Positions 6,652 through 57,500 of a stretch of 57,500 nt of DNA are shown piece by piece; position 1 is the first letter of the stretch; the number at the start of each line of letters is the position of its first letter. Both the position numbers and the translations under genes were made by a program. The notes beneath the pieces were generated by a model that was not told the origin of the DNA, made no database searches, and saw nothing but the letters and a program-made list of their open reading frames with translations. Source of the DNA: Bugula neritina (taxonomy: Eukaryota > Bryozoa > Gymnolaemata > Cheilostomatida > Bugulidae); contig OZ037769.1 of assembly GCA_964035545.1 (NCBI GenBank), forward strand, positions 222,501 to 280,000, in the 5' to 3' direction.

Positions 6652-6657
6652 TTTATT
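6652..6657 (-). promoter_or_regulatory. Poly(A) signal of gene A
   Basis: AATAAA on the minus strand, 32 bases past the gene A stop codon (6691-6689). Confidence 0.75.
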
Positions 6658-6688: not shown

Positions 6689-7231
6689 TTAAGTATCAGT
6701 TTGATAGACTGAGATTCTGCTGCATTCGGCCGAGTTGTCCCCAGTGCAAGTTGTGGAGCATTCATGGCTCTCAGTCTGACCATAGCGATTCGGGTCATTC
6801 CCGCAGTAGCAGTCATAATGAGAAACAACTCCCGCATAGTTGAAACCTTTAATTAAATACTGGCAAAGCTAAAATCCTACTCAATGAAATACAGTTTCTA
6901 CGAGAGGCTCAGAAATTTACCTCCCAGCAACGAGAACAGCTTTTAATAAATATAAGGTTACAAGTGAATCACTGGCATAGAAATGGACGATTAAAAAGGT
7001 GTACAAAAAAAGCAATGCATGATTGAAGCAACGTAACTAAACCCTAGCTTGGACTCTTGCTTTCTAACTACCAACAACTGAGAGAGGATTAGCTACCTGA
7101 CTGCCCACATAGACGGATACATTGAGTAACGAAGGCGCTAGTCGTGTCCAAGACAGAGGGGTCGGCATCTGAAAGAGTCTGGAGGGAGATTCTGACCCCC
7201 AGAGCTTTGGGGAGTCCGTCGTAGAAGCAAC
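6689..7231 (-). CDS. Gene A WSC domain 11 and C terminus (exons 27-28)
   Basis: 'GCFYDGL...C...C' then 'FNYAGVV...CYCGND...C...C...C...ISVYQTDT' and stop TAA at 6691-6689. The protein ends eight residues after the last Cys-Ser-Arg, with no TM or GPI signal. Confidence 0.9.
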
Positions 7232-10200
7232 CTGTAAGCACAGTTTACTGTAACTGTAATATATACTCGATACTGTAACATATACTCAATACTGTAATAT
7301 ATACTAAATACTGTAATATATACTCAATACTGTAATATATACTCGATACTGTAACATATACTCAATACTGTAATATATACTCAATACTGTAATATATACT
7401 CAATACTGTAATATATACTCAATACTGTAATATATACTCAATACTGTAATATATACTCAATACTGTAACATATACTCAATACTGTAATATATACTCAATA
7501 CTGTAACATATACTCAATACTGTAATATATACTAAATACTGTAACATATACTCAATACTGTAATATATACTCAATACTGTAACATATACTCAATACTGTA
7601 ACATATACTAATACTGTAATATATACTCAATACTGTAATATATACTCAATACTGTAATATATACTCAATACTGTAACATATACTCAATACTGTAATATAT
7701 ACTCAATACTGTAGTATATACTCAATACTGTAACATATACTCAATACTGTAACATATACTCAATACTGTAATATATACTCAATACTGTAACATATACTCA
7801 ATACTGTAATATATACTCAATACTGTAACATATACTCAATACTGTAATATATACTCAATACTGTAACATATACTAATACTGCAATATATACTCAATACTG
7901 TAATATATACTCAATACTCTAACATATACTCAATACTGTAACATATACTCAATACTGTAACATATACTCAATACTGTAACATATACTCAATACTGTAATA
8001 TATACTCAATACTCTAACATATACTCAATACTGTAATATATACTCAATACTGTAACATATACTCAATACTGTAACATATACTCAATACTGTAATATATAC
8101 TCAATACTGTAACATATACTCAATACTGTAACATATACTCAATACTCTAACATCTACTCATACGACAACAATGCTAGCTGTGTGCTGTGTGCTGTGTGCT
8201 GGGCGTCTCACCTAGATACTGCGTTCTCCACACTTTAACCCCAGACTTCCTTTCACAGTCCCCGGCGAGGTCCGTCCACCCGGCGTACTCATCTCCACAG
8301 AAACAGCTCGCCTCTCTCAACCCGGCGTAGTTGTATCCTGCAGCATATAGTATAGTATCCTGCAGCATATAGTATAGTATCCTACAGCATATAGTATAGT
8401 ATCCTGCAGCATATAGTATAGTATCCTGCAGCATATAGTACAGTGTAGTGTAGTGTAGTATATAGTATAGTATAGTATAGTATATATAATATAGTGTAGT
8501 ACAGTATAGTATAGTATAGCATAGTATAGTGTAGTATATATAGTATAGTATAGTATAGTATATATAGTATAGTATAGTATAGCATAGTATAGTATAGTAT
8601 AGTATATAGTATAGTATAGTATAGTATATAGTATAGTATAGCATAGTATAGTATAGTATAGTATATAGTATAGTATAGTATAGTATATATAGTATAGTAT
8701 AGTATAGCATAGTATAGTATAGTATAGTATATAGTATAGTATAGTATAGTATATAGTATAGTGTAGTACTTGTACCCTGTAAAATACTTGTAATACAGAG
8801 TAAGAAGTTCATACAATGCAATGCAAATACAATAAAATACAACACAATGCATAACTACGCAAAACACAGCCTGAGAGGCAGCATTACACTATATCAAAGT
8901 ATTATTCTAAACACAGCCTGAGAGACAGCATTATACTATATCAAAGTATTATTCTAAACACAGCCTGAGAGGCAGCATTACACTATATCAAAGTATTATT
9001 CTAAACACAGCCTGAGAGACAGCATTATACTATATCAAAGTATTATTCTAAACACAGCCTGAGAGACAGCATTATACTATATCATAGTATTATTCTAAAC
9101 ACAGCCTGAGAGACAGCATTATACTATATCATAGTATTATTCTAAACACAGCCTGAGAGACAGCATTATACTATATCAAAGTATTATTCTAAACACAGCC
9201 TGAGAGACAGCATTATACTATATCAAAGTATTATTCTAAACACAGCCTGAGAGACAGCATTATACTATATCAAAGTATTATTCTAAACACAGCCTGAGAG
9301 ACAGCATTATACTATATCATAGTATTATTCTAAACACAGCCTGAGAGACAGCATTATACTATATCAAAGTATTGTTCTAAACACAGCCTGAGAGACAGCG
9401 TTATACTATATCAAAGTATTGTTCTAAACACAGCCTGAGAGACAGCATTATACTATATCATAGTATTATTCTAAACACAGCCTGAGAGACAGCATTATAC
9501 TATATCAAAGTATTATTCTAAACACAGCCTGAGAGACAGCATTATACTATATCAAAGTATTATTCTAAACACAGCCTGAGAGACAGCATTATACTATATC
9601 ATAGTATTATTCTAAACACAGCCTGAGAGGCAGCATTACACTATATCAAAGTATTATTCTAAACACAGCCTGAGAGACAGCATTATACTATATCATAGTA
9701 TTATTCTAAACACAGCCTGAGAGACAGCATTATACTATATCATAGTATTATTCTAAACACAGCCTGAGAGACAGCATTATACTATATCATAGTATTATTC
9801 TAAACACAGCCTGAGAGACAGCATTATACTATATCATAGTATTATTCTAAACACAGCCTGAGAGACAGCATTATACTATATCATAGTATTATTCTAAACA
9901 CAGCCTGAGAGACAGCATTATACTATATCAAAGTATTATTCTAAACACAGCCTGAGAGACAGCATTATACTATATCAAAGTATTATTCTAAACACAGCCT
10001 GAGAGACAGCATTATACTATATCAAAGTATTATTCTAAACACAGCCTGAGAGACAGCATTATACTATATCATAGTATTATTCTAAACACAGCCTGAGAGA
10101 CAGCATTATACTATATCAAAGTATTATTCTAAACACAGCCTGAGAGACAGCATTATACTATATCAAAGTATTATTCTAAACACAACCTGAGAGACAGCAT

Positions 10201-13200
10201 TATACTATATCAAAGTATTATTCTAAACACAGCCTGAGAGACAGCATTATACTATATCAAAGTATTATTCTAAACACAGCCTGAGAGACAGCATTATACT
10301 ATATCAAAGTATTATTCTAAACACAGCCTGAGAGACAGCATTATACTATATCAAAGTATTATTCTAAACACAACCTGAGAGACAGCATTATACTATATCA
10401 TAGTATTATTCTAAACACAGCCTGAGAGACAGCATTATACTATATCAAAGTATTATTCTAAACACAGCCTGAGAGACAGCATTATACTATATCATAGTAT
10501 TATTCTAAACACAGCCTGAGAGACAGCATTATACTATATCATAGTATTATTCTAAACACAGCCTGAGAGACAGCATTATACTATATCAAAGTATTATTCT
10601 AAACACAGCCTGAGAGACAGCATTATACTATATCAAAGTATTATTCTAAACACAGCCTGAGAGACAGCATTATACTATATCATAGTATTATTCTAAACAC
10701 AGCCTGAGAGACAGCATTATACTATATCATAGTATTATTCTAAACACAGCCTGAGAGACAGCATTACACTATATCATAGTATTATTCTAAACACAGCCTG
10801 AGAGACAGCATTATACTATATCAAAGTATTATTCTAAACACAGCCTGAGAGACAGCATTATACTATATCAAAGTATTATTCTAAACACAGCCTGAGAGAC
10901 AGCATTATACTATATCAAAGTATTATTCTAAACACAGCCTGAGAGACAGCATTATACTATATCAAAGTATTATTCTAAACACAGAGTGAGAGACAGCATT
11001 ATACTATATCAAAGTATTATTCTAAACACAGCCTGAGAGACAGCATTATACTATATCATAGTATTATTCTAAACACAGCCTGAGAGACAGCATTATACTA
11101 TATCAAAGTATTATTCTAAACACAGCCTGAGAGACAGCATTACACTATATCATAGTATTATTCTAAACACAGCCTGAGAGACAGCATTATACTATATCAA
11201 AGTATTATTCTAAACACAGCCTGAGAGACAGCATTATACTATATCAAAGTATTATTCTAAACACAGCCTGAGAGACAGCATTATACTATATCATAGTATT
11301 ATTCTAAACACAGCCTGAGAGACAGCATTACACTATATCATAGTATTATTCTAAACACAGCCTGAGAGACAGCATTATACTATATCAAAGTATTATTCTA
11401 AACACAGCCTGAGAGACAGCATTATACTATATCAAAGTATTATTCTAAACACAGCCTGAGAGACAGCATTATACTATATCAAAGTATTATTCTAAACACA
11501 GCCTGAGAGACAGCATTATACTATATCAAAGTATTATTCTAAACACAGCCTGAGAGACAGCATTATACTATATCAAAGTATTATTCTAAACACAGCCTGA
11601 GAGACAGCATTATACTATATCAAAGTATTATTCTAAACACAGCCTGAGAGACAGCATTATACTATATCATAGTATTATTCTAAACACAGCCTGAGAGACA
11701 GCATTATACTATATCAAAGTATTATTCTAAACACAGCCTGAGAGACAGCATTATACTATATCATAGTATTATTCTAAACACAGCCTGAGAGACAGCATTA
11801 TACTATATCAAAGTATTATTCTAAACACAGCCTGAGAGACAGCATTATACTATATCAAAGTGTTATTCTAAACACAGCCTGAGAGACAGCATTATACTAT
11901 ATCATAGTATTATTCTAAACACAGCCTGAGAGACAGCATTATACTATATCAAAGTGTTATTCTAAACACAGCCTGAGAGACAGCATTATACTATATCAAA
12001 GTATTATTCTAAACACAGCCTGAGAGACAGCATTATACTACATCAAAGTATTATTCTAAACGCAGAGTGAAGTTGTCTCACCACGGACTCCACAATACTT
12101 CACACAATCCACCTCTTTAATGACAAATCTCTTGCTTATTCCATCCCCAACACCTCTGTAACATCCCAGGTAGGCCAGAGTCTTAGCTGAAACACCGACC
12201 AATCATATTACAGCAGCCGATTCAATGAATAAATGTCAACTAGATGTATTGTATGTTTGAGTGTATATTTATAGCAATACATACGGGCAACTCCGGTTCG
12301 TATAACACTGTTTCTCCAAGTTCCACCACTAGCTAGAGATATGGGAGACGATTGACAGTCAAACTGGGGGCTCTCTATGTACCTGTTAAAGTCATCTCCG
12401 CAGTAACACAAGTAGCCATCTTGTAGGGCGCCGTACATGTACCCTGTCAACACCAGTACATAGTTATACATCTAATAGCACATAGTTATACATCTAATAG
12501 CACATAGTTATACATATAATAGCACATAGTTATATATCTAATAGCACATAGCTATATATCTAATAGCACATAGTTATACATCTAATAGCACATAGTTATA
12601 CATATAACAGCACATAGTTATACATCTAATAGCGCATAGCTATATATCTACTAGCACATAGTTATATATCTAATAGCACATAGTTATACATCTAATAGCA
12701 CATAGTTATACATATAATAGCACATAGCTACACATCTAATAACACATAGTTATATATCTAATAGCACATAGCTATACATCTAATAGCACATAGTTATACA
12801 TCTAATAGCACATAGCTATACATCTAATAGCACATAGCTACACATCTAATAGCACATAGCTATACATCTAATAGCACATAGCTATACATCTAATAGCACA
12901 TAGCTACACATCTAATAGCACATAGCTATACATCTGATAGCACATAGCTATACATCTCACCTTCCCTCTCGCAAAAGTTCAGACATGTTGGTAGATCTGA
13001 CATGAAATCCGGCAGCCATATTCGATGACTCAGAGAATGAAGTGTAGCGTCTTTGAAGCAGCCTAATGACATCATAAAACCTTATTAGTGTTACACCATA
13101 TAGCTAGTACTGTAGCGTTACACCATATACCCATATAGTTAGTACTGTAGTGTTACACCATATAGTTAGTACTGTAGTGTTACACCATATAGCTAGTACT

Positions 13201-16200
13201 GTAGCGTTACACCATATACCCATATAGTTAGTACTGTAGTGTTACACCATATAGTTAGTACTGTAGTGTTACACCATATAGCTAGTACTGTAGCGTTACA
13301 CCATACACCCATATAGTTAGTACTGTAGTGTTACACCATATAGTTAGTACTGTAGTGTTACACCATATAGCTAGTACTGTAGCGTTACACCATACACCCA
13401 TATAGTTAGTACTGTAGCGTTACACCATATAGTTAGTACTGTAGTGTTACACCATACACCCATATAGTTAGTACTGTAGTGTTACACCATATACCCATAT
13501 AGCTAGTACTGTAGCGTTACACCATACACCCATATAGTTAGTACTGTAGTGTTACACCATATACCCATATAGTTAGTGCGGTAGATGGAGTTTATTTTAG
13601 TCCCTCCACAGGTGTTACTCTCATTGGCTGGACACTTCAAGTTACACATGTTGTCTGGATATCCTCCAAAGTATCCGTAAGAGTTACCACAGAGACACTT
13701 TGTTCTGCTCTGTAGCCCAGCGTACTTGAAACCTGCCGCAGGTAAAAAAATTAGTAACACTATGTAGAGTTAGTTCAATAGTTTATTGTTCTGCTCTATC
13801 TAGTATTCAGTAGAGTAGCAGACTTTGACATATTATGACACAATTTGACATATGATGACACATAATGACAAATAATGAGACTTATTGACACAGTTTGATA
13901 CAGTATGACACATAGTGACACAAATTGACAAATCTTGACAGAGTGTGACACCAGACGCACCTCGCATACTACAGTATTCAATGCATCTTCCAACATCATT
14001 GAAATCCCCAAAGTCCACCATGGCTCCATTCAAGTCCCTTTGCCCAGGCTGAACCTCAAAACACCCCAGGTAGCTTCTGTTGCTGAAACCTATAACATGA
14101 AGTTACAGCTACAACTTATCCAACACTCAACATTTTAGCGCAATTCGACTAAAATCACGACAAACATTACCCCTTATCCTTTCCTGAACTTTTTTTAGTA
14201 TTTTATAATTCCATGAAATACTGTACATGCTAGTAAATTCAGCGTTGTCTATTGTTTAGTTTCAGAGTTTACTAAGAATCGCTGTACTACGTACTCAGTT
14301 TCTGCTCTCTACCAGTTAACATACTCTTAGTTATAGAAGATACGAACTATTGAGGTGCTAACCAAAGCTCTTCTCTTGATACACTTCATATCTGTTCGGC
14401 TGCCAGCATTCTTCTCTGTCCTTCTTTACACACATGTAGTTGCAGCTGGCGTCATCGGCCACCCGGCCCTGTCCGTACTGATTGCCGCACGTACAGCGGA
14501 ACTCTGCTAAGGCAGCGTATCTGTACCCTGAGTCATACATATGTTGATATATATTATATTATATACCTTTACTATTACAGTGCGTTAGACAGAGTATATG
14601 TTGATATATATTATATTATATACCTTTACTAATGCAGTGTATTAGACAGAGTATATGTTGATATATATTATATTATATACCTTTACTATTACAGTGTATT
14701 AGACAGAGCAAAGGTTGATTGTAGTCATCCACTGTGATAGGCTCGTTGTTCACATCTCTGGAATATTCCTGGTCTTTATAACATCCAAGATACTCCAGTT
14801 CAACTAAACATATATTCACAGGTATTACACACAGTTACACATAATGCAATAAATCAGTTTATTAGAATATATACATACTTACTACTTACTAGTATATTAG
14901 AATATATACATACTTACTAGTATATTAGAATATATACATACTTACTACTTGGCCATGTTTGTACCTCTTCCTCTGTTTTATGACCTTTAAAAGCAAAGAG
15001 CACATGAGAACACAAATCATAGAGAAGGGCACAGAGTTGCAATATGGAGTTATCATACTCCTATTACTCTGATATATTAGTAATATGGAGTTGTCTCACT
15101 CTTAATACTAACCCGGAATGTCAATTTCATAGACCAAGTAAGTCGCACTACTTCCACAGGAATAATTTCTGCCGGGACAAGGTATTGCGCAATACTTCTC
15201 ATTCAGTATTCTACGTCTTTGGAATTTATCTCCACATGAACACCGTGTGCCTTCTCGCAACGCAATGTAGGAGTAACCTACAAATATGCTACAGTGTGCA
15301 GCTACAATACTAACCCTATATAGCGTGCAGCTACAATACTAACCCTATACAGCGTGCAGCTACAATACTAACCCTATACAGTGTGCAGCTACAATACTAA
15401 CCCTATACAGCGTGCAGCTACAATACTAACTCTATACAGCGTGCAGCTACAATACTAACTCTATACAGCGTGCAGCTAATACTAACTCTATACAGTGTGT
15501 AACTACAATACTAACTCTATACAGTGTGCAGCCACAATACTAACCATACGAAGTACAGTGTGCAGAGCAACTAGATATTCTGTTGTTAATCCCCAAGTTG
15601 ATGGGCTGACGACTCAGATCTGCATCCTCTGGTGTACCGTCATAACAGCCAATGTATGTGGTGTTCGGGTTATCTGCAGTAACAGCTGTGAATTCTACAA
15701 GTATACACCAGGTAGAGAGTATACACCAGGTAGAGAGTATACACCAGGTAGATAGTATACACCAGGTAGAGAGTATACAGGTAGAGAGTATACACCAGGT
15801 AGAGAGTATACACCAGGTAGAGAGTGTACACCAGGTAGAGAGTGTACACCAGGTAGAGAGTATACAGGTAGAGAGTATACAGGTAGAGAGTGTACACCAG
15901 GTAGAGAGTGTACACCAGGTAGAGAGTATACACCAGGTAGAGAGTTACCTGAAGAGTTGTACACGGAAAGTCTCCCCTCCCCACCACACCTGCCGTACTC
16001 TCCCGTACAGGTAACGTCACACTCACTCGTAGCTCTCTCCAACTTCGGGTTCATCTCGTCTCCACAATAACAACGATTCAGTTGTAGACCGGCAAAGTTG
16101 AAACCTGATCAGTAATATAACTGTTGTATGTGTGCATATATATTACTATATAGTTACATATATAGTAATATATATTACTATGTAAATGTCTATGGTGTAC

Positions 16201-17881
16201 ATATATATTACTAGAGTTTAATTTTACTGTTACTAGCATACAAAACCATGTCCTAAAATGTATCTTATTCTAATATGATGTTGCATGTCGCTTTCACCTT
16301 GTTCTGAAATATTTCACTTTGTTCTAAGATATTTTACCTTGTTCATAGCACAGTCTGCTGCATTCATTTGAAGTTAGTTCTAGAGATGATAATATTGGTG
16401 TCTCAATGAAATGATCCAGTATTTTGTCTGTGTAACATCCAACATAACCTTCCTTTGCTGCAAAGTAAAAATAAAAAGTGTATCGTAAATAATCAAGTTT
16501 TATCAAACTAAAACCAATGTGTACAACACACTGCGTACAATCTGTACAACACAATGTTTACAACACACTGTGTACAACACAATGTTTACAACACACTGTG
16601 TACAACACAATGTGTACAACACACTGTGTACAATGTGTACACTGTGTACAATGTGTACAACACACTGTGTACAATGTGTACAACACATTGCATATAATCA
16701 CAACTCCACCAATACAAGCAGAGTACGTTGAACTAGACCTTGTATCTGGTAGACAGAGATATTCCAGAGAGCATACAGAGGGCTGTCACTTCCACAGTAG
16801 CTGTAGTCTCCTGCGCAGGTGAAGTTACAATCTCTTTCATTCAGACTGTGATAGGGCTGTAGTTTGTCTGTACAGGCGCAGTAGTCTCGCATCAGTCCCA
16901 CGTACCGACTAGCAGCTGTAACAACACACAGGTTCTAAGGCTACAAGGTCAAACTACTAACACGTGTGAAGGTTAGTATGTCTATGACGCACTGCACTCA
17001 CTATGTATCAACATTACACACTGTTTCTATCTTTTTATAAGACAAAAATGCAACTTTTAATCCAGGTTGCTAAACTGATTTGCTGACAGCATTCCACACC
17101 CACCATTAGTCTGTGAGCAGAACGCCATGCACTGGGAGACGCTGCCGTTGGACAGCGACATCGCGTGTCCATATCTGAACTCATTTCTTATCATAGAATA
17201 GTTGTAACATCCAAGATAGTCTCTGTCGACTGCAATGTAATTATATCCTGTATATTGAGTAATATAATCATATACTATATACTTGGTAATACGGTATAAT
17301 ATTATATACTATACACTTGGTAATACGGTATAATATTATATACTATACACTTGGTAATACAGTATAATATTATATACTATACACTTGGTAATACAGTATA
17401 ATATTATATACTATAATGCTTACCATTTGCTGAAATGCTTTCTGTTCCACTGGACTCAACTGCAATTATTATGCAAAGTTTTAACAAATCAATTTAAGAC
17501 AAGTAAGATACATTATTTAGTATAATTTGAGTACCCCACGAAATATTCACAGTATACTATTACTATATTATACGTTATGTCAGTTTTGACCTTAACATAT
17601 AGACCCGTACCTCTTGTGTCGTAGACTGAGAGCTGTTCTGCCCCTCCACACATCTGATGTTTATCCCCAACACACTCTATGGAGCACAGTCTACTATCCT
17701 GTTTATAGGGTGGGTATATATAGTTCCCACACTCACATATAGTAGCCTGTAGAGACGCGTAATTGAAACCTACAATAACCAGCTTGGACATTTCCTTGGC
17801 TTTGATATGATATTTCTCTTTTCCATCAAATTTCAGTTTATTAAGGTTATTGAATAACATCTATGTATACATACACACACA

Positions 17882-17961
<80 letters not shown>

Positions 17962-20900
17962 CACATATATATATATACATATACATATATGTATACGTAC
18001 ACATATATGTATATTTATACGTAGTAAGTACACACATATATGTATACATATATGTGTACTTACATGTATATATTTATACATATGTGTATATGTACACGTA
18101 CACACATATGTATACATATATGTGTACTTACATGTATATATTTATACACACCTGAATGCGAACAGAAACCAACACACTGTGTCACTGTATTGTAGCCATT
18201 TTTGAACTCTGTTCGAATTCTATTATATGAGGAGAAAAGCTTCTTGAAGCATCCCTGATAATTCTCCATGCCTACAATAGAAATTAGTGAGTCTACTCTA
18301 CTACCCTACGAGGGTATCTACCCTACCATCCTATGAGGGTCTCTACCCTACTACCCTATGAGGGTCTCTACCCTACTATCCTATGAGGGTCTCTACTATC
18401 CTATGAGGGTCTCTACTCTACTATCCTATGAGGGTCTCTACCCTACTATCCTATGACAGATGAGAGAGATGTGTGAGAGACGCTCACCAAAAGGTGTCCT
18501 GTACATGGAGTTGGTTGTCTTCCCACCACAGCTTTGGTAAAGTCCCAGACATTTATAGCCACACTCGTTGTCTGCCCTTCTTCCAAATGACTTGATAAAG
18601 TTGCTGGTGCAGAAGCATTGAGTTGTGTTCTGTACTCCAGCATAAAAGAACCCTGTGAGAATAATATTCTACGTCAAACATAAACCAACAAACACCCATC
18701 AACACTTCAAACCCACACAGTCCTTCATATCTGAAAACACCTGGTCCCAGGCCAATTTAGATTCTTTAAAACCATTTATAATATCTATTTTTATTTCAGG
18801 TGCCATTTTTTCTACTAATAAAGTGTAACAATATTTTCAATCAACTGTATATATTCATGCAGAAGTATAAACTCACCCTTGTTGGCACAATATTCTACAC
18901 AAGACACCACAACATTGCCTCTACCAAACTCCACAATCCCTTTCTCTGGATAGTCTCTCATTTTATAGCACCCGGCATAGAAGAAGGGTCTTTCTACAGT
19001 TAGAAAAGGGTAGGCTCTTCAGTAAACTACTGGGCCATTCATGTTCAAGTACAGTTCATTGTAATAATAGAATTTAAACATATTGCAAATTCCTTCATTA
19101 CCGTATTTATAATCGGGTGGTACGGAAGTGTGCGCTTCACCTACAAAATAAAAAGTTATTTGTCAAATGGCTTGAACAATGAATAGATTGTTTTTGAAGG
19201 AGTACTTCATGGTTATTCTTTCTTGCATCAACAAATACAAAAATATGGCCAGGTAAATTTACCAACATTCAAAAAATATTGCCAAAATATAATTACAGAG
19301 CTAGTGAGCAAAACTAACATAAAGTATGATGTGTTTAAATTTCTGCTAAAAACGATTAATTGCTCTAACAACTGCTATAAATTACTTTATTAACTGCCAT
19401 AAATTATTCTAATAATCTCTATAAACTAATACATGAATACAAATAAACATCAATATTACACTAGCACACTGGCAACAAGACCAATAGATATCGGTTGCCA
19501 CGAATCAACTACAAATCCTGTGAAAAAGGAAGCAGCTTGCTGGTATATATGTTTGCTGTTACATACTTGAAGGAATATTACTTGGTGAAGGACTGGTAGA
19601 CATGATATCACTTGTCCAGGGAGAAGTTGTCCGCAAACCTGTGACTGAGAAACTGTCCGCTAATAGCAAATAAATACAAATCAACATTACAAGACTCAAT
19701 ACATTTAGTAATACAGTGATAGTCACATTGCCCTGGATAGCTGCTGACTCGAGTGTTTGATCAGTTGACTAGGCTACTAAGAGTTATTGACTAGACTAGT
19801 CACTAGACTCAGTACATCAACTGAAGAACTTAGAATTGCTTGAGTTGACTCAAGTAGTTAATTTACTTTATTCAGATTCAACTTCAGCTAATGGACGTCT
19901 CTCTCTTGAACCAACATATTATAGATTATGATATACAACTACTAAGTCTGGTATTAATCTACTAACTTGTGAGGTAGACGGAGTTGGCTAAATATCCACC
20001 ACATTCATTGCCGTCATCACAACGCATGTCACAAAAACGAGCATCTCCTCTACCATGGCTACCGTAGCTGTCTCCACAGAAACACATAGCTGCCTCTTGT
20101 ATTCCAGCATACTTATACCCTGTGATTGTATAACATTACGTAGCAGTAGTAAAACACTACGTAGCAGTAAAACACTACGCAGCAGTAGTAAGACACTACA
20201 CAGTAGTAAAACACTACACAGTAGTAAGACGCTACACAGCAGTAAAACACTACGCAGTAGTAAAACACTACACAGTAGTAAGACGCTACACAGCAGTAAA
20301 ACACTACACAGTAGTAAGACGCTACACAGCAGTAAGACACTACGCAGTAGTAAAACACTACACAGCAGCAAGAGGAGTAACTTACTAGCCTGTAGGCAGA
20401 AGTTGCCACACGAGTTCACACTTTCCACCCTCCTGGAAGACTCATAGGAGAGATCTCTGGAACCAGATCTGTCTAGATAGCAGCCTACGTAGGTGAAGTG
20501 TGACAGTGACCCTGTTCAACATAATAAGTCAACGTCAGTAAACAAGAACTATTTGTGCGTGCGTGCGTGCGTGTGTGTGTGTGTGCGTGTAGGTAGTATA
20601 GTACAGTATTAAAAGAGGAACTGATTTTTTTGCACAGTCACCTTTGCTATATCCATCTGTAGTAGGAGGTGAAACACTTCTCAGGGGAACACTCAGAATC
20701 GCCTACAGAGAGAAGTGTAGAACACAATTCATTCTCAAAATTATATCAGGAAACAAAACAAAAAAATGAAAAAAATTCTGAGAAACTTTTGTAGCTTCTA
20801 ATAACTTCTGAGAAATGAATTAACTTACAACAACAGCAACGATCACAGCAATGACCTCAACAATAGCTAGTGTGACGGCAGCTGCAATAAGCCATTGAGC

Positions 20901-21284
20901 TCTTCTAACCAGCTTCTTCTTGTAGAATTCCCCGATGCTAGTTTTTCTGGAGGTAAACGCGAAGTAGAGTCCAAAGAAAGCGCAGGGAAGGCAGCAAAAT
21001 GTGGATATGATGCCGGCTATAAACCAGGGTGCTCCAAGACGGGTGCCACCCTGACTATGATGTGCTTGCCCTGAGGGCCCATGAGCAACATACTCATAGC
21101 TTGGATTCTCGTAGCTTAGAGGCTCGTAGCTTAGAGGCTCGTAGCTTGGAGGCTCGTAGCTTGGGGGTCGAGTACCAGGAGCTGCCGAGGCACTCAAGTC
21201 AGTCAGATGTATTGAACTACATGCCAATGAGTCAGATAATGAGCCTGTACCATCCAAAGTGTCCTTTTCATCTATTTTCTCCAT
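6689..21284 (-). CDS. Gene A: CD225/dispanin membrane anchor fused to eleven WSC domains
   Basis: 28 exons, 3804 coding bases, 1267 codons plus stop: 21284-20829, 20702-20642, 20511-20386, 20119-19967, 19659-19567, 19140-19102, 18993-18877, 18652-18488, 18271-18152, 17769-17611, 17459-17424, 17229-17104, 16915-16739, 16457-16338, 16104-15949, 15673-15545, 15277-15113, 14984-14949, 14803-14681, 14527-14363, 14089-13961, 13732-13565, 13062-12961, 12443-12285, 12186-12082, 8337-8212, 7231-7097, 6846-6689. Every junction is GT/AG; intron 1 is phase 0 and all others phase 1. Residues 40-63 hold five (P/L/N)PSYE-like repeats including two PPSY motifs. Residues about 86-152 are a CD225 domain (hydrophobic hairpin, 'FCCLPCAFFG', basic loop, second TM). 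A 20-residue linker follows, then eleven WSC domains (GC-Y/F...C...C, then Y-A-G...C-x-C-G...C...C...CGG...S-V-Y). No signal peptide and no C-terminal TM. By IFITM topology the N terminus is cytosolic and the WSC array extracellular or luminal. WSC domains are linked to carbohydrate binding; ligand unknown. Internal exon choices are inferred from splice signals and need RNA evidence. Confidence 0.9.
7243..8165. repeat. 19-bp minisatellite, about 48 copies
   Basis: Unit actgtaatatatactcaat with aacata/atata variants; fills the gene A intron between WSC10 and WSC11. Confidence 0.95.
8212..12186 (-). CDS. Gene A WSC domain 10 (exons 25-26), shortened, split by a 3.7-kb intron
   Basis: 'YLGCYRG...C...C' (12186-12082) then 'YNYAGLRE...CFCGDE...DCERK' and directly 'VWRTQYL'. 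The loop with the last cysteines is deleted. The halves are separated by the 47-bp array. Confidence 0.85.
8338..8440. repeat. 22-bp repeat copied from a splice acceptor, about 5 copies
   Basis: On the minus strand each unit contains tgctgcaggatac, the same as the real acceptor and exon start of exon 8337-8212 (gctgcag|GATAC). Confidence 0.9.
8441..8766. repeat. TATAG pentanucleotide microsatellite
   Basis: Imperfect (tatag)n with tatat and catag variants, following the 22-bp array in the same intron. Confidence 0.93.
8860..12064. repeat. 47-bp minisatellite, about 68 copies, 3.2 kb
   Basis: Unit starts aaacacagcctgagagacag; main variable site is atcaaag versus atcatag. Very homogeneous. 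No unique spacers, so it is not a CRISPR array. It lies in the WSC10 intron of gene A. Confidence 0.98.
12285..13062 (-). CDS. Gene A WSC domain 9 (exons 23-24), cysteine pair missing
   Basis: 'YMGCFKD...C...C' then 'YMYGALQDG...CYCGDD...DCQSS...SGG...SVIRT'. The second cysteine of the C...C pair and the Cys of CGG are both absent (SGG), as expected if one disulfide was lost. Confidence 0.86.
12466..12955. repeat. 22-bp minisatellite, about 22 copies
   Basis: Unit catagttatacatctaata plus gca; runs up to the donor of exon 13062-12961. Confidence 0.94.
13084..13570. repeat. Composite 27/35-bp minisatellite containing a copied exon end
   Basis: Minus-strand units contain ACTAACTATATGGGTATATG, identical to the last bases of exon 13732-13565 plus its donor (ATG G|GTATATG). 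The array is continuous with the exon. Confidence 0.9.
13565..14089 (-). CDS. Gene A WSC domain 8 (exons 21-22)
   Basis: 'YLGCFEV...C...C' then 'FKYAGLQ...CLCGNS...C...C...CGG...SIYRT'. Complete. Its 3' splice-donor context is the unit of the downstream minisatellite. Confidence 0.9.
13835..13950. repeat. Degenerate 10-bp (ttgacacata) repeat
   Basis: Tgacaca/tgacata words at about 10-base spacing in the WSC8 intron. Confidence 0.75.
14363..14803 (-). CDS. Gene A WSC domain 7 (exons 19-20)
   Basis: 'YLGCYKD...C...C' then 'YRYAALAEF...CTCGNQ...C...C...CW...VY'; the CGG is replaced by CWQ. The donor of the first half lies in a 57-bp tandem triplication. Confidence 0.88.
14558..14714. repeat. 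57-bp tandem triplication including an exon 3' end and its donor
   Basis: ttagacagag recurs at 14585, 14642 and 14699 (period 57). On the minus strand each copy includes the last 27 or so bases of exon 14803-14681 followed by G|GTATATA, so three near-identical donors are present. Confidence 0.92.
14862..14946. repeat. Short 28-bp tandem repeat (tagaatatatacatacttac)
   Basis: Three copies between linker microexon 14984-14949 and WSC7. Confidence 0.8.
14949..14984 (-). CDS. Gene A possible 36-base linker microexon 18
   Basis: Acceptor gcttttaaag and donor A|GTAGTAAG, phase 1 in and out, 12 residues (GHKTEEEVQTWP plus a split codon). It has the same size as microexon 11. The frame is also kept without it, so inclusion is uncertain. 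Confidence 0.5.
15113..15673 (-). CDS. Gene A WSC domain 6 (exons 16-17)
   Basis: 'YIGCYDG...C...C' then 'YSYIALREG...CSCGDK...C...C...CGS...LVY'. The intron is filled with a 29-bp repeat. Confidence 0.88.
15296..15545. repeat. 29-bp minisatellite, about 8 copies
   Basis: Unit cagcgtgcagctacaatact plus nine bases, in the WSC6 intron. Confidence 0.92.
15700..15945. repeat. 17/18-bp minisatellite (caccaggtagagagtata)
   Basis: About 14 copies with 12-bp short units, beginning next to the donor of exon 16104-15949, where GTAACTCTC of the donor matches the unit's minus-strand CTCTCTACC region only partly. Confidence 0.9.
15949..16457 (-). CDS. Gene A WSC domain 5 (exons 14-15)
   Basis: 'YVGCYTDK...C...C' then 'FNFAGLQ...CYCGDE...C...C...CGG...LSVY'. 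Complete cysteine set. Confidence 0.9.
16515..16695. repeat. Short repeat tgtacaacacac / tgtgtacaa
   Basis: Partly palindromic 10-20-base words in the intron between WSC4 second half and WSC5. Confidence 0.85.
16739..17229 (-). CDS. Gene A WSC domain 4 (exons 12-13)
   Basis: 'YLGCYNY...C...C' then a diverged second half 'SRYVGLMRDYCAC...C...C...CG...ISVY', in which the usual G-Y-x-Y-A-G start and CxCG are altered. Confidence 0.85.
17255..17415. repeat. 34-bp minisatellite, about 4 copies
   Basis: Unit tactatacacttggtaatac plus 14 bases, between WSC4 and microexon 17459-17424. Confidence 0.88.
17424..17459 (-). CDS. Gene A 36-base linker microexon 11
   Basis: attgcag acceptor and G|GTAAGC donor, phase 1 to phase 1. 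Codes for 12 residues including SSGTESISAN between WSC3 and WSC4. Skipping it would keep the frame, so it could be alternative. Confidence 0.65.
17611..18271 (-). CDS. Gene A WSC domain 3 (exons 9-10)
   Basis: 'YQGCFKK...C...C' half then 'GFNYASLQ...CECG...C...C...CGG...LSVY'. The intron between the halves carries ACGC/AC/TA microsatellite (17870-18150). Confidence 0.88.
17873..18150. repeat. ACGC / AC / TATG microsatellite block
   Basis: (acgc)n about 17880-17950, then (ac)n, then tatatgtatac words. Lies inside the WSC3 intron. Confidence 0.93.
18285..18460. repeat. Minisatellite with core ctatgagggtctctac
   Basis: About seven copies of 16-27 bases in the intron between WSC2 and WSC3. Confidence 0.88.
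18488..18993 (-). CDS. Gene A WSC domain 2 (exons 7-8)
   Basis: 'FFYAGCYKM' half then 'GFFYAGVQ...CFCTSN...C...C...CGGK...SMYRT'. The usual CxCG is CFCT here. Confidence 0.88.
19102..19659 (-). CDS. Gene A linker exons 5 and 6 (Ser/Thr/Pro-rich spacer)
   Basis: Two phase-1 exons of 93 (19659-19567) and 39 bases (19140-19102) code for a Ser/Thr/Pro-rich stretch (MSTSPSPSNIPS, then EAHTSVPPDYKY) that separates WSC1 from WSC2. Likely an O-glycosylated stalk. Both have good acceptors (ctattag, ttttgtag). Confidence 0.75.
19967..20511 (-). CDS. Gene A WSC domain 1 (exons 3-4)
   Basis: First half 'FTYVGCYLD...C...C', second half 'GYKYAGIQ...CFCG...CDMRC...CGG...SVY'; all expected cysteines present. 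Preceded by a short linker exon (20702-20642) containing VSPPTTDG. Confidence 0.9.
20130..20370. repeat. Minisatellite with core agtaaaacactacaca
   Basis: Units of 16-18 bases in the WSC1 intron of gene A. Confidence 0.9.
20829..21284 (-). CDS. Gene A exon 1: tyrosine/proline tail plus CD225 domain
   Basis: A single 152-codon exon, phase 0 at its end. Residues 40-49 carry two PPSY motifs (NEDD4-type WW ligands; human IFITM3 has a comparable PPNYE), followed by PLSYE, PLSYE and NPSYE. TM1 spans about 86-110 with Cys97, Cys98 and Cys101, where IFITMs are S-palmitoylated. The loop is basic (TSRKT...KKKLVRR) and TM2 spans about 131-152. In genes B and C the tail and the CD225 hairpin are separate exons, so an intron was lost here or gained there. 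Confidence 0.9.
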
Positions 21285-34323: not shown

Positions 34324-37300
34324 ATGACGCTTGAACCGAAATACGAGGAGAAGACTCAATATGGAATGAATGAACCCCCACCCCCTGCATATCCAGTAGC
34401 AGTGAATGGATCCGCCCCCTCCTCTGTGTACGGCAATGTGTACTCCACTCCCGGTTCCACTCAAGCTGGTTATGCCGCACCCACCGGTTATGCCGCACCC
34501 ACCGGTTATGCTGCACCGACCGCGGCAGCGGCAGCTCCGACAGCGGCAGCTCCGACAGCGAATGGTAACAGGTCAGCCTACTACCAGAGCAAGAATGGAA
34601 CTTACTGCAACGTTGTGGTACCAGGTGACCAGCTGCAGGCAGATGGATCTCTACCCCACGTAAGTACCTTGTCTCAAGTAATACTTTGTCTCAAGTAGTA
34701 CTCTGTCTTAAGTAGTACTCTGTCTCAAGCAAGTACTCTGTCTTGAGTAAGTACTCTGTCTTAAGTAAGTACTATGTCTCAAGTAAGTACCCTGTCTCAA
34801 GTAAATACTCTGTTTCACGTAAGTACCCTGTCTCAAGCAAGTACCCTGTCTCAAGCAAGTAATCTGTCTTAATTAAGTACCCTGTCTCAAGTAAGTACCC
34901 TGTCTCAAGTAAGTACCCTGTCTCAAGTAAGTACTATGTCTCAAGTAAGTAACCTGTCTCAAGTAAGTACTCTGTCTCAAGTAAGTACTCTGTCTCAAGT
35001 AATTACTCTGTCTCAAGTAAGTACCCTGTCTCAAGTAAGTACTCTGTCTTAAGTAAGTACTCTGTCTCAAGTAAGTACTCTGTCTCAAGTAAGTACTCTG
35101 TCTCACGTAAGTACTCTGTCTTAAGTAAGTACCCTGTCTCAAGTAGTACTCTGTGTCAAGTAAGTACTCTGTCTTAAGTAAGTACTCTGTCTCAAGTAAG
35201 TACTCTGTGTCACGTAAGTACTATGTCTTAAGTAAGTACTATGTCTCAAGCAAGTACTCTGTCTCAAGTAGTGAGTCAACTGAGTCAGTTACATATAATC
35301 AGAGTGAATATTTAGTATAAAGGATCTTTGCAGGCTCCCATATTTATTACTGGGAACTGAGTGTAAGTAACATTGTACCTATATAACACTATATATTGCT
35401 GTGAAGAATATATAACACTATTATAATATATATTGTGTAAAACTACATTGGTTTTTAAGCTATTCCAGTGTCTTTTATTACTTGTGTAGGTTTTTACTGT
35501 ATAAATATTTTATTTTATTGTCTCTGGTCAGATATAACAATTGAGGTTAGAATGTGATACTAAATTAGTACTGCTCAATAGTAGCCTGTCTAATCTTCCT
35601 TTAAGGAATACTGCAAGAACAATGCTATGCAGATTCTAATGTTACAGCTGCAAAACTTGTATATACCCTCCTTATATACTCATATATGTATGTACTGTAT
35701 ATACCCTCCTTATATACTCATATATGTATGTACTGTATATACCCTCTTCATATACTCATATATGTATGTACTGTATATACCCTCCTTATATACTCATATA
35801 TGTATGTACTGTATATACCCTCTTCATATACTCATATATGTATGTACTGTATATACCCTTCTTATATACTCATATATGTATGTACTGTATATACCCTCCT
35901 TATATACTCATATATGTATGTACTGTATATACCCTCCTTATATACTCATATATGTATGTACTGTATATACCCTCCTTATATACTCATATATGTATGTACT
36001 GTATATACCCTCCTTATATACTCATATATGTATGTACTGTATATACACTCCTTATATACTCATATATGTATGTACTGTATATACCCTCCTTATATACTCA
36101 TATATGTATGTACTGTATATACCCTCCTTATATACTCATATATGTATGTACTGTATATACCCTCCTTATATACTCATATCTGTCTGTACTGTATATACCC
36201 TCCTTATATACTCATATCTGTCTGTACTGTATATACCCTCCTCATATACTCATATATGTATGTACTGTATATACCCTCCTCATATACTCATATATGTATG
36301 TACTGTATATGCCCTCAATCTAACAACACCATAAGCTATTCTATGACAATGCATGGTATCTCCAATTTAGACTATTTTGTGCTGGCTTAGCTTAGCTCTG
36401 CTATGAGCAATACAATAGACTAGTTAGGGTGTTGAGTATGTCCATCATACATGCAGCCCACTGGACTATTGAATTTGCATCAATTAATTTGAGTTGCTAT
36501 TTAAACAAGTCTTAAATAAAGCAGAGTGTGTATTCTGAATTGAAAGTTGAAACTAGTAAAACATATTACGTCATTCAACTTAGCTTACAACCAGGACAGA
36601 ATAGAACCTGCAACCAAGATACTATTGATTCTTGTATTATTCATTTCATGTTTTGTTTAACTTATTTGCTCAGAAAGTTAAATTTATACTATTTCAATAA
36701 AATGCATTTTAAGAAGTTGGGAGAAAATGGTGTCAAGATATAATGAAATTATCTAGTTATGAAAGCAAATAAGTTAGCATGATGATATTGGGCGGAATAA
36801 AGCTATTTCAGTGCTGTGTTGCAAATAGCTAAATGCAGCATCCAGCTTTTTCTGCAACGACACACTAACAGAAACTGAGACACACTGCAACTGTGACCTA
36901 TTAAAATGTGGCCCAAATATGATGAATAATTGCAGAAGTGTCACATAGCGTTCTGACACATAGTATTCTGACACATAGTATTCTGACACGTAGTATTGTG
37001 ACACATAGTATTGTGACACATTATATTCTGACACATAGTATTCTGACACATAGTATTCTGACACATAGTATTCTGACACATTGTATTCTGACACATTGTA
37101 TTCTGATACATAGTATTGTGACACATTGTATTCTGACACATAGTATTCTGACACATAGTATTCTGACACATATTATTCTGACACATAGTATTCTGACACA
37201 TAGTATTGTGACACATAGTATTCTGACACATAGTATTGTGACACGTAGTATTCTGACACATAGTATTCTGACACATAGTATTCTGACACATAGTATTCTG

Positions 37301-40300
37301 ACACATTGTATTCTGACACATTGTATTCTGACACATAGTATTCTGACACATAGTATTCTGATACATAGTATTCTGACACGTAGTATTGTGACACATATTA
37401 TTCTGACACCTAGTATTGTGACACATAGTATTGTGACACATAGTATTCTGACACATAGTATTGTGACACATAGTATTCTGACACATTGTATTGGGACACC
37501 TGGTATTTCATTGCAGACGTGTCACCATCACTCAAAGATATGGTTCTACATATCTCTCTGTGCCATCATCCTATTCTTTCCGCTGGCCATCCCCGGGGCG
37601 GTGTTCGCACACAAAGCTCGACAAGATGCTAAGAGGGGAGACAAACTCGCTTACAAGAAGCATTTGAGAATCTCTCATGTTCTCACCGGGATAGCCATCG
37701 GTTTCGGGATTTCCTCCATTGCAAATGTCACAGCAAGAGTTAGTTTTCATGAAAATCAGCAAAACATTGGCCGACATGTTTTAATAAAAGCCACACTGAG
37801 TTCAATAATTTAGTTTATTTTATTGAAAGAAGAGAATAGCATTATAAAAGTAGTATAAGTAAGTTATGTTGAGCAGTGCAACAAGTATTTTGAGTGAGCC
37901 AACAAGCAAAGCATGTTATACGATTTGGTTATTGAACACATGATGAAAATAGATTGCAACTCAATAATTCCATCTGTACAGGCTATACATATTCTATTAC
38001 TGGACGTTATCATACAAATGTTAGTCATGAAATATCCCAAGCTTTTTAATTTTAGTGGAAATTTTGATTTAGGGTGCGGGTTGAAATTCTCACGAGAACA
38101 TAACTTCTTATGCTACATTTGTAATCTAGTACAATGGCTTTTCTCAAATTCTCCATTACTGCACCTACTTCTCTACAATGCAATACAAATTTATTTATCA
38201 GACAAATAAAATATTGTAGATTCCCCAGTTTGTAAAAAAAAGTACGGTGATTTCATATGGAGGGTTAGAGAAGAGATTGGTACCGAACTGGACTAGTGAG
38301 TATAATATTAGTATAGAACTGTAAGTATAGTATAGAACTGTAAGTATAGTATACACTGTAAGTATAGTATATACTGTAAGTATAGTATATACTGTAAGTA
38401 TAGTATATACTGTAAGTATAGTATACACTGTAAGTATAGTATACACTGTAAGTATAGTATAGAACTGTAAGTATAGTATAGAACTGTAAGTATAGTATAC
38501 ACTGTAAGTATAGTATACACTGTAAGTATAGTATATACTGTAAGTATAGTATATACTGTAAGTATAGTATACACTGTAAGTATGTAGTATACACTGTAAG
38601 TATAGTATACACTGTAAGTATAGTATAGAACTGTAAGTATATTATATACTGTAAGTATAATATACACTGTGAGTATAGTATACACTGTAAGTATAGTATA
38701 TACTGTAAGTATAGTATACACTGTGAGTATAGTATACACTGTAAGTATAGTATAGAACTGTAAGTATATTATACACTGTAAGTATAGTATACACTGTAAG
38801 TATAATATACACTGTAAGTATAATATACACTGTAAGTATAGTATAGAACTGTAAGTATAATATACACTGTAAGTATAGTATACACTGTAAGTATAGTATA
38901 GAACTGTAAGTATAGTATAGAACTGTAAGTATAGTATAGAGCTATAAGTATAGTATACACTGTAAGTATAGTATACACTGTAAGTATAGTATATACTGTA
39001 AGTATAGTATAGACTGTAAGTATAGTATACACTGTAAGTATAGTACATACTGTAAGTATAGTATACACTGTAAGTATGTAGTATACACTGTAAGTATAGT
39101 ATACACTGTAAGTATAGTATAGAACTGTAAGTATATTATATACTGTAAGTATAATATACACTGTGAGTATAGTATACACTGTAAGTATAGTATATACTGT
39201 AAGTATAGTATACACTGTGAGTATAGTATACACTGTAAGTATAGTATAGAACTGTAAGTATATTATACACTGTAAGTATAGTATACACTGTAAGTATAAT
39301 ATACACTGTAAGTATAATATACACTGTAAGTATAGTATAGAACTGTAAGTATAATATACACTGTAAGTATAGTATACACTGTAAGTATAGTATAGAACTG
39401 TAAGTATAGTATAGAGCTATAAGTATAGTATACACTGTAAGTATAGTATACACTGTAAGTATAGTATATACTGTAAGTATAGTATAGACTGTGAGTATAG
39501 TATACACTGTAAGTATAGTATAGAACTGTAAGTATATTATACACTGTAAGTATAGTATACACTGTAAGTATAGTATACACTGTAAGTATAGTATACACTG
39601 TAAGTATATTATACACTGTAAGTATAGTATACACTGTAAGTATAGTATACTTACAGTGTATAGTATACACTGTGAGTATACTATACACTGTAAGTATAAT
39701 ATACACTGTAAGTATAGTATAGAACTGTAAGTATAATATACACTGTAAGTATAGTATACACTGTAAGTATAGTATACACTGTAAGTATAGTATAGAACTG
39801 TAAGTATAGTATAGAGCTATATAAGTATAGTATATTCATATAATATCAGTGTAATATATTATATGTTGCCAGCATCTGGTAGTTATATTGGCTGTTACGC
39901 TGACGACCCAGCAGATAGAGATCTGAATGGAGAAGTCATGTCTGGCCTTACAAAGGAAGAATGTCTCACCTATTGTGCGAACAAAGGTAGGGATACCATA
40001 ACCCGCTGGTTTATGTCTTGTGTCTCAACAGAACAGCTGGAGTTATTCTTCCTCTGGTTTATTCTATATAATGCTGTTGATAACCACTATTCCAACTTCC
40101 AGGATACAAGTATGCAGGGCTACAAAGTGAAACAGACTGCTACTGTGGACAAGAGTTTGATAAACACGGTAAACTTGACGACTCAGACTGCGACTACGAG
40201 TGCCCTTCTGACCCAGACTTCTCTTGTGGAGGAAGTTTCAAGAACTCAGTCTACAGAACTCACTACCTAGGTAGAGTAGCAGTATACTGTACTAATACCT

Positions 40301-43300
40301 AGGTAGAGTAGCAGTATACTGTACTAGTACCTAGGTAGAGTAACAGTATACTATACTAATACCTAGGTAAAGTAGCAGTATACTATACTAATACCTAGGT
40401 AGAGTAGCAGTATACTGTACTAATACCTAGGTAAAGTAGCAGTATACTATACTAATACCTAGGTGAAGTAGCAGTATACTATACTAATACCTAGGTAGAG
40501 TAGCAGTATACTGTACTAATACCTAGGTATTAGTACAGTATACTATACTAATACCTAGGTGAAGTAGCAGTATACTGTACTAATACCTAGGTAGAGTAGC
40601 AGTATACTGTACTAATACCTAGGTAAAGTAGCAGTATACTGTACTAATACCTAGGTAGAGTAACAGTATACTATACTAATACCTAGGTAAAGTAGCAGTA
40701 TACTGTACTAATACCTAGGTAGAGTAACAGTATACTATACTAATACCTAGGTAGAGTAGCAGTATACTGTACTAATACCTAGGTAAAGTAGCAGTATACT
40801 GTACTAGTACCTAGGTAGAGTAACAGTATACTATACTAATACCTAGGTGAAGTAGCGGTATACTATACTAATACCTAGGTAGAGTAACAGTATACTATAC
40901 TAATACCTAGGTGAAGTAGCAGTATACTATACTAATACCTAGGTAGAGTAGCAGTATACTGTACTAATACCTAGGTATTAGTACAGTATACTATACTAAT
41001 ACCTAGGTGAAGTAGCAGTATACTGTACTAATACCTAGGTAGAGTAGCAGTATACTGTACTAATACCTAGGTAAAGTAGCAGTATACTGTACTAATACCT
41101 AGGTAGAGTAACAGTATACTATACTAATACCTAGGTAGAGTAGCAGTATACTGTACTAATACCTAGGTAAAGTAGCAGTATACTGTACTAATACCTAGGT
41201 AGAGTAACAGTATACTATACTAATACCTAGGTAAAGTAGCAGTATACTGTACTAATACCTAGGTAAAGTAGCAGTATACTGTACTAATACCTAGGTAGAG
41301 TAGCAGTATACTATACTAATACCTAGGTAAAGTAGCAGTATACTGTACTAATACCTAGGTAGAGTAGCAGTATACTGTACTAATACCTAGGTAAAGTAGC
41401 AGTATACTGTACTAATACCTAGGTAAAATAGCAGTATACTGTACTAACTACCTAGGTAAAGTAACTGCACACTATTAGGCAAAATATTACAGCTCTTTTT
41501 TAGAGTTGCCTTTCCTCTCTCTAGTATTTTTACTTGGTCCTAGTAATTAACTCGTCTTTATCCAAGAGTGCTGCCTTATGCAGGATGTTATGACGACTAC
41601 AATGGAGATGCTGTCGACCAGTTCAGCTACATCATGCCCTCTAGTAACGCTACTCAAGATACGTGTATATCCAGGTGTATGCAGGAAGGTATGTTCTAAC
41701 CAACATCCACGTGTATATCCAGGTGTATGCAAGAAGGTATGTTCTAACCAACATCTACCTGTATATCCAGGTGTATGCAGGAAGGTATGTTCTAAGAAAC
41801 ATCTACCTGTATATCCAGGTGTAGGCTGAAAATCTACTAGTCTCGCTGCTTACATAATTTCTTTGCAGTTAAAAAACAATTTTCAACACTAAGTGCAAAA
41901 CAAGTATGAATAATATATTCATCAATACATGTGAGGTAGCTTTAGTGACTGTGCGCTGCTAATGAATAACACCAACCACTCTGCTGTCAGGTTATGAGTT
42001 TGCTGCCATCAAAAATGGAGAAGAATGCCAGTGTAGCAACGATCCTAACAGAGATGGTGAAGCAGATATCGGCTCCTGTAACGTCGCTTGTGAAGGGAAC
42101 GCCGACTTTCTGTGTGGAGGGAAATTCAAGAACTCGGTCTATAAAACTGATTATAACAGTGAGTCGTGCTTTAGACATGCATATGTGTAATAGAATATGA
42201 TATAATATGACATTCTATAATAAAATATAATATAATATGAAACAACATGCATTGTTTTCCTAGACATAGAAATAATAGACAACTACCTTGGTTGCTATGA
42301 CGACGATGTGAATGATAGAGACATGGATGAACACTACTTTGATATTGATGGCATCGATGATTCTGAGAAATGTGTTGAAGCTTGTGGGCACTTGGGTACG
42401 TCTTAGTACACTTTCATTATACATTCTGTTGCAATGTAAGTTACAAGTTACAAGTTACAAGTAATATACTGTGTAGGATACAAGTAATATACTGTGTAGG
42501 TTACAAGTAATATACTGTGTAGGATACAAGTAATATACTGTGTAGGTTACAAGTAATATACTGTGTAGGATACAAGTAATATACTGTGTAGGATACAAGT
42601 AATATACTGTGTAGGTTACAAGTAATATACTGTGTAGGTTACAAGTAATATACTGTGTAGGATACAAGTAATATACTGTGTAGGTTACAAGTAATATACT
42701 GTGTAGGATACAAGTAATATACTGTGTAGGTTACAAGTAATATACTGTGTAGGATACAAGTAATATACTGTGTAGGATACAAGTAATATACTGTGTAGGT
42801 TACAAGTAATATACTGTGTAGGTTACAAGTAATATACTGTGTAGGTTACAAGTAATATACTGTGTAGGTTACAAGTAATATACTGTGTAGGTTACAAGTA
42901 ATATACTGTGTAAGTTACAAGTAATATACTGTGTAAGTTACAAGTAATATACTGTGTAGGATGCAAGTAATATTCTGTGTAAGATACAAGTAATATTCTG
43001 TGTAAGTTACAAGTAATATACTGTGTAGGTTACAAGTAATATACTGTGTAGGATACAAGTAATATACTGTGTAAGATACAAGTAATATACTGTGTAGGAT
43101 ACAAGTAATATACTGTGTAAGTTACAAGTAATATACTAAGTAAGTTACAAGTAATATACTGTGTAGGATACAAGTAATATACTGTGTAGGTTACAAGTAA
43201 TATACTGTGTAGGATACAAGTAATATACTGTGTAGGTTACAAGTAATATACTGTGTAAGTTACAAGTAATATACTGTGTAGGTTACAAGTAATATACTGA

Positions 43301-53830: not shown

Positions 53831-57199
<3,369 letters not shown>

Positions 57200-57500
57200 G
57201 TGACTTTCTACACACGAGTTGAAGTTGTAAATTCATGGTGCACTTTATAGCAGGTATTCTACTATTTGCATGTGAGAAACATATAACCAACTGGTAGCTG
57301 CAGATAGCTATACATCAATATAATACTATAATAATATAACTGTATGTTAGTAATATATTATTGTAATATTTTAACTATAAAATAATGCAGTAATACAATA
57401 ATATAACTATGAATTAACATAAATAATACATACTAATAATACTGTACACTAATACAATATTATATAATAATATGACTACAAAAATATAATAATATAACTA
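57200..57500. other. Start of CBM39 gene intron 4
   Basis: AT-rich (taatataacta words); nothing coding seen before the window ends. Confidence 0.6.

Follow-up and report, generated by a model that had tools for sequence, protein, structure and literature searches.

A predicted family of dispanin-anchored WSC proteins in the bryozoan Bugula neritina

Introduction

CD225 proteins, or dispanins, are described as binding SNAREs and regulating membrane fusion (PMC11730294). IFITM3 is described as a type II membrane protein with its C-terminus outside, a PPxY motif that docks NEDD4 and palmitoylated cysteines C71 and C72 (PMC13194588), and a 2012 dispanin paper places both termini outside (PMC3282796). 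Among proteins with WSC domains, the three-WSC lectin SiWsc3 is reported to bind beta-1,3-glucan, and the WSC domain of Kremen1 to contact protein (PMC9024836); WSC is also named among the domains of invertebrate SRCR proteins and sponge pattern-recognition receptors (PMC10855680, PMC8242945). For bryozoans, a change in dispanin expression is reported in Fredericella sultana (PMC7460649). Here we analyze a gene of the bryozoan Bugula neritina that is predicted to join the two domain types, a CD225 hairpin followed by eleven WSC domains. It lies in a window of 57,500 nucleotides (nt), C5:222501-280000 on chromosome 5 of the 215.8 Mb genome (assembly tzBugNeri2.1; PMC11480708). We refer to it as the main gene, and find two further genes of the same architecture on the plus strand of the window, beyond the single gene of the original prediction.

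Results

The main gene, on the minus strand from 21284 to 6689, was modeled with 28 exons, 3846 nt and 1281 amino acids (aa), with a single terminal stop and an AATAAA poly-A signal at 6657, past the stop at 6689. The model consists of a CD225 exon, a linker exon, and 22 half-WSC exons, to which four small linker exons are added as optional; without these four it comes to 3639 nt and 1212 aa. An in-frame series of a CD225 exon, a linker, and 22 alternating half-WSC exons had been predicted, and it is present at the predicted coordinates, with AG/GT at the modeled internal junctions and phase 1-1 WSC exons. The modeled length differs slightly from the predicted total of 3804 bases. The length is an exact multiple of three, as had been noted, but this adds little because it follows automatically from symmetric exons. 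The predicted eleven-WSC array was borne out by Pfam WSC (PF01822, 27.8-bit cut-off), which matched 11 stretches at 389.5 bits for the whole protein (expect value, E, 4e-119). Eight cysteines (3+5) are present in nine of the 11 domains, and six in WSC9 and WSC10. At E up to 0.1, Pfam returned solely WSC and CD225, with no Kringle or CUB. Exon 1 begins with a tail carrying PPSY twice (aa 40 and 45) as well as PLSY/NPSY repeats. The hairpin that follows has hydrophobic peaks at aa 88-106 and 137-155, the only two over threshold in the 1281 aa, separated by a short basic loop rich in K/R; a CC pair within the first segment corresponds, in our own reading, to C71/C72 of IFITM3.

The main, B and C exons (B and C being the two further genes in the window) served as seeds for the custom CD225 profiles, and the assignment of these three therefore rests on Pfam scans and leave-one-out scoring. 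Exon 1 of the main gene scored 34.1 bits on a leave-one-out profile of 13 other CD225 exons of the same genome and 36.3 bits on a profile built solely from four WSC-less CD225s of the genome, whereas 500 shuffles of the hairpin part reached 7.1 bits at most. The leave-one-out score and the shuffles rule out a chance hydrophobic exon in place of CD225. In a profile-profile comparison, ten WSC-linked CD225s, the main one included, matched six ordinary CD225s with 98.8% probability. Four of the 14 cluster CD225 exons in the genome-wide Pfam listing exceed the curated cut-off of 27.1 bits (38.5, 36.8, 34.9, and 28.0 bits). The hairpin had been predicted to be of CD225/IFITM type; CD225 holds by custom profile, but the Pfam score lies below the cut-off, and judged by its sequence the hairpin is a diverged dispanin, not IFITM proper.

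All ten genes with a readable gap (main, B, C, L032, L039, L041, L042, J2, J3, and J4) allow an exon of phase 0 to 1 between CD225 and WSC1, and it ends in Trp-x in nine of them; the gene starting in L040, where the sequence ended, stands outside this count. The scan of main, B, C, and the L genes did not require Trp and left between one and three candidates per gene, with three each in L032, L039, L041, and L042, from which the Trp-bearing one was picked; the scan of J2-J4 required Trp. DNA comparison of J3 with J4 gave eight conserved blocks, of which seven coincide with N, CD225, linker, or WSC exons; the seventh of these is the first half of WSC2, which strengthens the gene model. The ratio of nonsynonymous to synonymous substitution (dN/dS) for this recent pair was 0.38 in the N exon, 0.09 in CD225, 0.41 in the second b-half, and 0.32 overall. 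A signal-peptide-like start, read from an in-frame upstream ATG on the linker, was seen in two of nine gaps scanned, those of gene C (49143-49257, plus strand) and L042, and may be chance or a secreted isoform.

For the two further genes of the window, Pfam gave 3.5e-64 for WSC and 0.047 for CD225 in paralogue B, and 3.5e-49 and 3.1e-4, respectively, in paralogue C, whose model omits the first half of WSC3 (~51176-51304, placed by eye, weak donor). Another 17 CD225 exons are clustered at C5:3.61-3.82 Mb, 13 from the genome-wide Pfam listing and four from a further search, one of these four with a stop codon inside its match. The two C5 clusters together have 20 CD225 exons, and for 18 of these the same strand carries WSC matches downstream, ahead of the next CD225. 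Of the 48 genome-wide CD225 matches, 34 fall outside both clusters, with no listed WSC match within 70 kb; the WSC list is a lower bound, the genome-wide search having scored 150 of 253 candidates. These data support a CD225-linker-WSC family that expanded in the B. neritina lineage rather than a single odd gene, and recurrence of the domain order in many paralogues makes an isolated assembly artefact unlikely. The CD225 genes L017 and L020, at C4:17.29 Mb, are WSC-less. Their CD225 exon may have a phase 0 donor, and of the five exons that could come next, one ends NGTYNGTSTP followed by a stop; the unspliced frame stops a few codons later. If this sequon-bearing exon is used, the WSC exons may have been added where an outward-facing tail already existed. 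L018, at the same place, likewise lacks WSC and shows a phase 0 donor followed by a candidate exon with NGT sequons and a stop. Other WSC clusters, with no listed CD225 nearby, were seen at C3:15.15-15.90, C4:23.06-23.12, and C8:5.81-5.89 Mb.

A separate B. neritina annotation, described as made with AUGUSTUS and transcriptome hints (PMC7576161), contains the protein EB796_022373, which has a PPEY/PPDY tail, a CD225-like hairpin, and two WSC domains in matching order. Its precomputed Pfam column gives WSC alone, and its top matches, 74-82% identical, lie within C5:3.71-3.75 Mb. The view that the architecture is new was strengthened by recurrence in a family, by the same-phase linker in ten of ten genes, and by the domain order of this protein. 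A single-sequence search with the full main protein matched two fungal WSC proteins only. A search with a paralogue alignment returned nine proteins, and among the five examined the CD225-like part was present only in EB796_022373. Residues 1-190 of L041 retrieved five proteins, whose Pfam column gives WSC in every case and never CD225, and no CD225-like part was found in the three of these examined. The co-occurrence of CD225 and WSC elsewhere, which the original prediction proposed looking for, is found in the paralogues and EB796_022373 of B. neritina, but no fusion in another species was found in the protein searches, which matched few animal proteins and did not cover other bryozoan genomes. 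In the open-access literature searched we found no paper naming both CD225 and the WSC domain, nor a dispanin/IFITM-WSC fusion among the matches listed.

The features are collected in Table 1. Minisatellites occupy many introns of the main gene (7253-8160, 8333-8444, 8862-12065, 12458-12957, and 13086-13584, with further stretches at 14539-14719, 15290-15545, 15700-15945, and 20144-20365), and the intron of WSC10 contains a 47-bp minisatellite in ~68 copies. By eye, several arrays start at an exon edge and copy the splice donor or acceptor, giving several near-identical splice sites. Near the WSC genes, at 3600-3962 on the minus strand, lies an open frame that encodes a death effector domain (PF01335, E 2.3e-11). 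A CBM39 gene (PF15886, 3.8e-16, exons joined by eye) lies at 53831-56391 on the plus strand and 57000-57200, followed by a Thr/Pro-rich stretch; the whole genome has four CBM39 matches.

Table 1. Features of the main gene and of its paralogues (window positions unless another sequence is named)
Feature	Position	Strand	Basis
Exon 1: start codon, N-terminal tail, CD225/dispanin hairpin, phase 0 end	20829..21284	-	Leave-one-out CD225 profile; Pfam CD225 below cut-off
Linker exon, phase 0 to 1: end of second transmembrane segment (TM2) and stalk (AILSVPLRSVSPPTTDGYSK)	20642..20702	-	Same-phase exons at matching place in paralogues
WSC1, exons 20511-20386 and 20119-19967	19967..20511	-	Gene model and Pfam
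Optional Ser/Thr/Pro linker exons 19659-19567 and 19140-19102, candidates	19102..19659	-	Open, phase 1-1, AG/GT
WSC2, exons 18993-18877 and 18652-18488	18488..18993	-	Gene model and Pfam
WSC3, exons 18271-18152 and 17769-17611	17611..18271	-	Gene model and Pfam
Optional linker exon, candidate	17424..17459	-	Gene model
WSC4, exons 17247-17104 and 16915-16739	16739..17247	-	Gene model and Pfam
WSC5, exons 16457-16338 and 16104-15949	15949..16457	-	Gene model and Pfam
WSC6, exons 15694-15545 and 15277-15113	15113..15694	-	Gene model and Pfam
Optional linker exon, candidate	14946..14984	-	Gene model
WSC7, exons 14803-14681 and 14527-14363	14363..14803	-	Gene model and Pfam
WSC8, exons 14089-13961 and 13732-13565	13565..14089	-	Gene model and Pfam
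WSC9 (6/8 Cys), exons 13062-12961 and 12443-12285	12285..13062	-	Gene model
WSC10 (6/8 Cys), exons 12186-12082 and 8337-8212	8212..12186	-	Gene model
WSC11, exons 7231-7097 and 6846-6689 including stop	6689..7231	-	Gene model
Paralogue B: N exon 34324-34659 (PPAY), CD225 exon 37517-37738, candidate linker 38229-38295, four WSC	34324..45183	+	
Paralogue C: N exon 46187-46513 (no PPxY), CD225 exon 47703-47930, linker 49176-49257, four WSC	46187..52669	+	
The two C5-cluster CD225 exons with no downstream WSC exon found	L045:1022-1240 and L053:987-1208		

Discussion

We propose that these genes probably encode a family of type II membrane proteins, in which a dispanin hairpin carries an extracellular WSC array and which would act as glycan-binding receptors. 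The CD225-linker-WSC architecture is well supported; topology and function we infer from the topology and PPxY motif of IFITM3, the sequons, the known WSC ligands, and the SNARE binding of CD225 proteins, which together suggest receptors that are anchored in the membrane and serve recognition or scavenging. The N-terminal tail, rich in proline and bearing PPxY-like motifs in the majority of members though not in every one, would lead into the hairpin; the linker exon would finish TM2, supply a short stalk, and shift the splice phase from 0 to 1; and the string of phase 1-1 half-WSC exons would form the ectodomain, with 11 WSC domains in the main protein and about two to four in the paralogues looked at. 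The C-terminus would face the outside or the lumen, as in IFITM3, and the array may bind polysaccharide or glycoprotein ligands by avidity in the manner of SiWsc3. The tail could govern endocytosis and turnover through WW-domain ubiquitin ligases, and the whole protein might serve as a surface or endosomal receptor that recognizes or scavenges microbes, symbionts, or matrix. The IFITM3 type II topology and the 2012 dispanin topology both place the C-terminus outside, and a cysteine-rich array that holds all ten of the sequons of the main protein fits such a location.

A number of observations weigh against this proposal, and many of them concern the hairpin. Against Pfam CD225 (PF04505) the main exon reached 15.8 bits (E 0.015), below the cut-off, and the genome-wide Pfam search (48 matches, E up to 0.05) listed neither this exon nor that of gene B. 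Gene B (14.3 bits), gene C (21.2), the N-terminal part of J3 (23.5), and the hairpin of EB796_022373 (16.5) also fell short, so that L041, at 32.6 bits, was the only one of six proteins scanned to pass. In J3 the related-looking model DUF4190 scored higher than CD225, at 29.2 bits, both below cut-off. In a CD225 tree the main gene did not group with the others, on a long branch with weak support and unsettled bootstrap, and an independent origin of its fusion is possible from this placement.

Others concern the junction, the exons, and the topology. The model of EB796_022373 contains neither the linker exon nor the first part of WSC1, and its junction differs from the one proposed here; it thus supports the domain order and not the junction. 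The linker of the main gene is the lone one among the ten without Trp, and the J3/J4 linker, at a dN/dS of 1.14, has kept its frame and splice sites and not its sequence. The low dN/dS of both WSC1 halves in this pair (0.11 and 0.11) is rough because dS is 1.4 and 1.6, and J2 and J3, being 92-95% alike throughout, are uninformative about exons. No WSC was found downstream of two of the 20 CD225 exons in the C5 clusters (3632546 and 3705005), and for the exon at 3614537 the WSC support is one weak half (1.2e-3). Under the 2012 dispanin topology the tail would not be cytosolic. Of five tails checked, PPxY is present in main, B, and J3, LPxY in L039, and neither in C, while the gene B tail holds three sequons; the gene B sequons and the gene C tail weaken the arguments from topology and ligases. 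The Kremen1 WSC domain, for its part, contacts a protein.

The exons might instead belong to two neighboring genes, one a short dispanin gene that stops after the CD225 exon and the other encoding a secreted WSC protein from its own signal-peptide exon, in which case the fusion would be an artefact of joining by eye. WSC-less CD225 genes do exist in the genome, as in the 34 matches outside the clusters with no listed WSC nearby, and the signal-peptide-like linker starts of gene C and L042 also count in favor of this account. However, just 317 bp separate the CD225 exon from WSC1 in the main gene, and a search of this gap for a signal-peptide-like open reading frame found none; the same-phase linker recurs; and EB796_022373 joins the domains, albeit at another junction. 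The signal-peptide-like extensions, moreover, run across sequence that precedes the acceptor and could be fortuitous, and we consider the two-gene account unlikely. The same two starts could point to alternative first exons that yield both an anchored CD225-WSC protein and a secreted WSC protein from one locus, but they are missing from the other seven gaps scanned, that of the main gene included, and we regard this as very improbable.

The architecture could also be right and the array serve structural adhesion, in the cuticle or colony matrix or at zooid contacts, rather than microbe recognition. Bryozoans build a cuticle, and nothing in the sequence discriminates the ligand. WSC domains are also described as mediating protein contacts, as between Kremen1 and Dkk1 (PMC9024836). 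The tandem expansion and divergence of the paralogues resemble those of recognition families, although this is suggestive only, and we hold an adhesive role to be possible but not the likelier outcome.

Within the proposal of membrane-anchored recognition receptors, a more speculative extension is that of a ligand-targeted IFITM, in which WSC binding might steer the clustering, the endocytosis (via PPxY and NEDD4), and the fusion behavior of the membrane that carries it. The family could then, tentatively, be seen as a bryozoan multigene receptor class that couples a fusion-modulating dispanin hairpin to a tandem WSC lectin array. To our knowledge, bryozoan immunity has been little studied, and the family would add candidate recognition receptors in this phylum. 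Dispanins are known as small proteins that have next to nothing beyond TM2, and a dispanin hairpin that anchors a large ectodomain would mean that evolution can co-opt the hairpin as a receptor module; the exons would suggest a route for this, a phase 0 to 1 adaptor exon placed ahead of phase 1-1 shuffling modules.

Compared with known systems, the main protein shares with the CD225/dispanins (IFITM1-3, PRRT2, and TUSC5) the two hydrophobic segments, the basic loop, the CC pair, the proline-rich PPxY tail, and similarity to CD225 profiles. It differs in what follows TM2, more than 1,100 residues against a C-terminus described as shorter than 10 residues in dispanins (PMC3282796). Kremen1/2 (WSC, Kringle, and CUB) likewise present an extracellular WSC on a membrane protein, and in a search of gene C, not the main protein, against solved sequences, four of five matches were Kremen1; Kremen has one WSC domain, whereas the main protein has 11 and is anchored by an N-terminal dispanin hairpin. 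The fungal cell-wall sensors Wsc1-3 also tether a WSC ectodomain to the membrane, but are described with an N-terminal WSC, a Ser/Thr region, one transmembrane segment, and a C-terminal cytosolic tail (PMC9024836), the reverse of the order seen here. SiWsc3 of Serendipita indica resembles the main protein in having tandem WSC domains that are proposed to act jointly (PMC9024836), and differs in being secreted, with three WSC domains and no membrane anchor. EB796_022373, with two WSC domains and a model that leaves out the linker, has in common with the main protein a PPxY-type tail, a CD225-like hairpin, and WSC domains.

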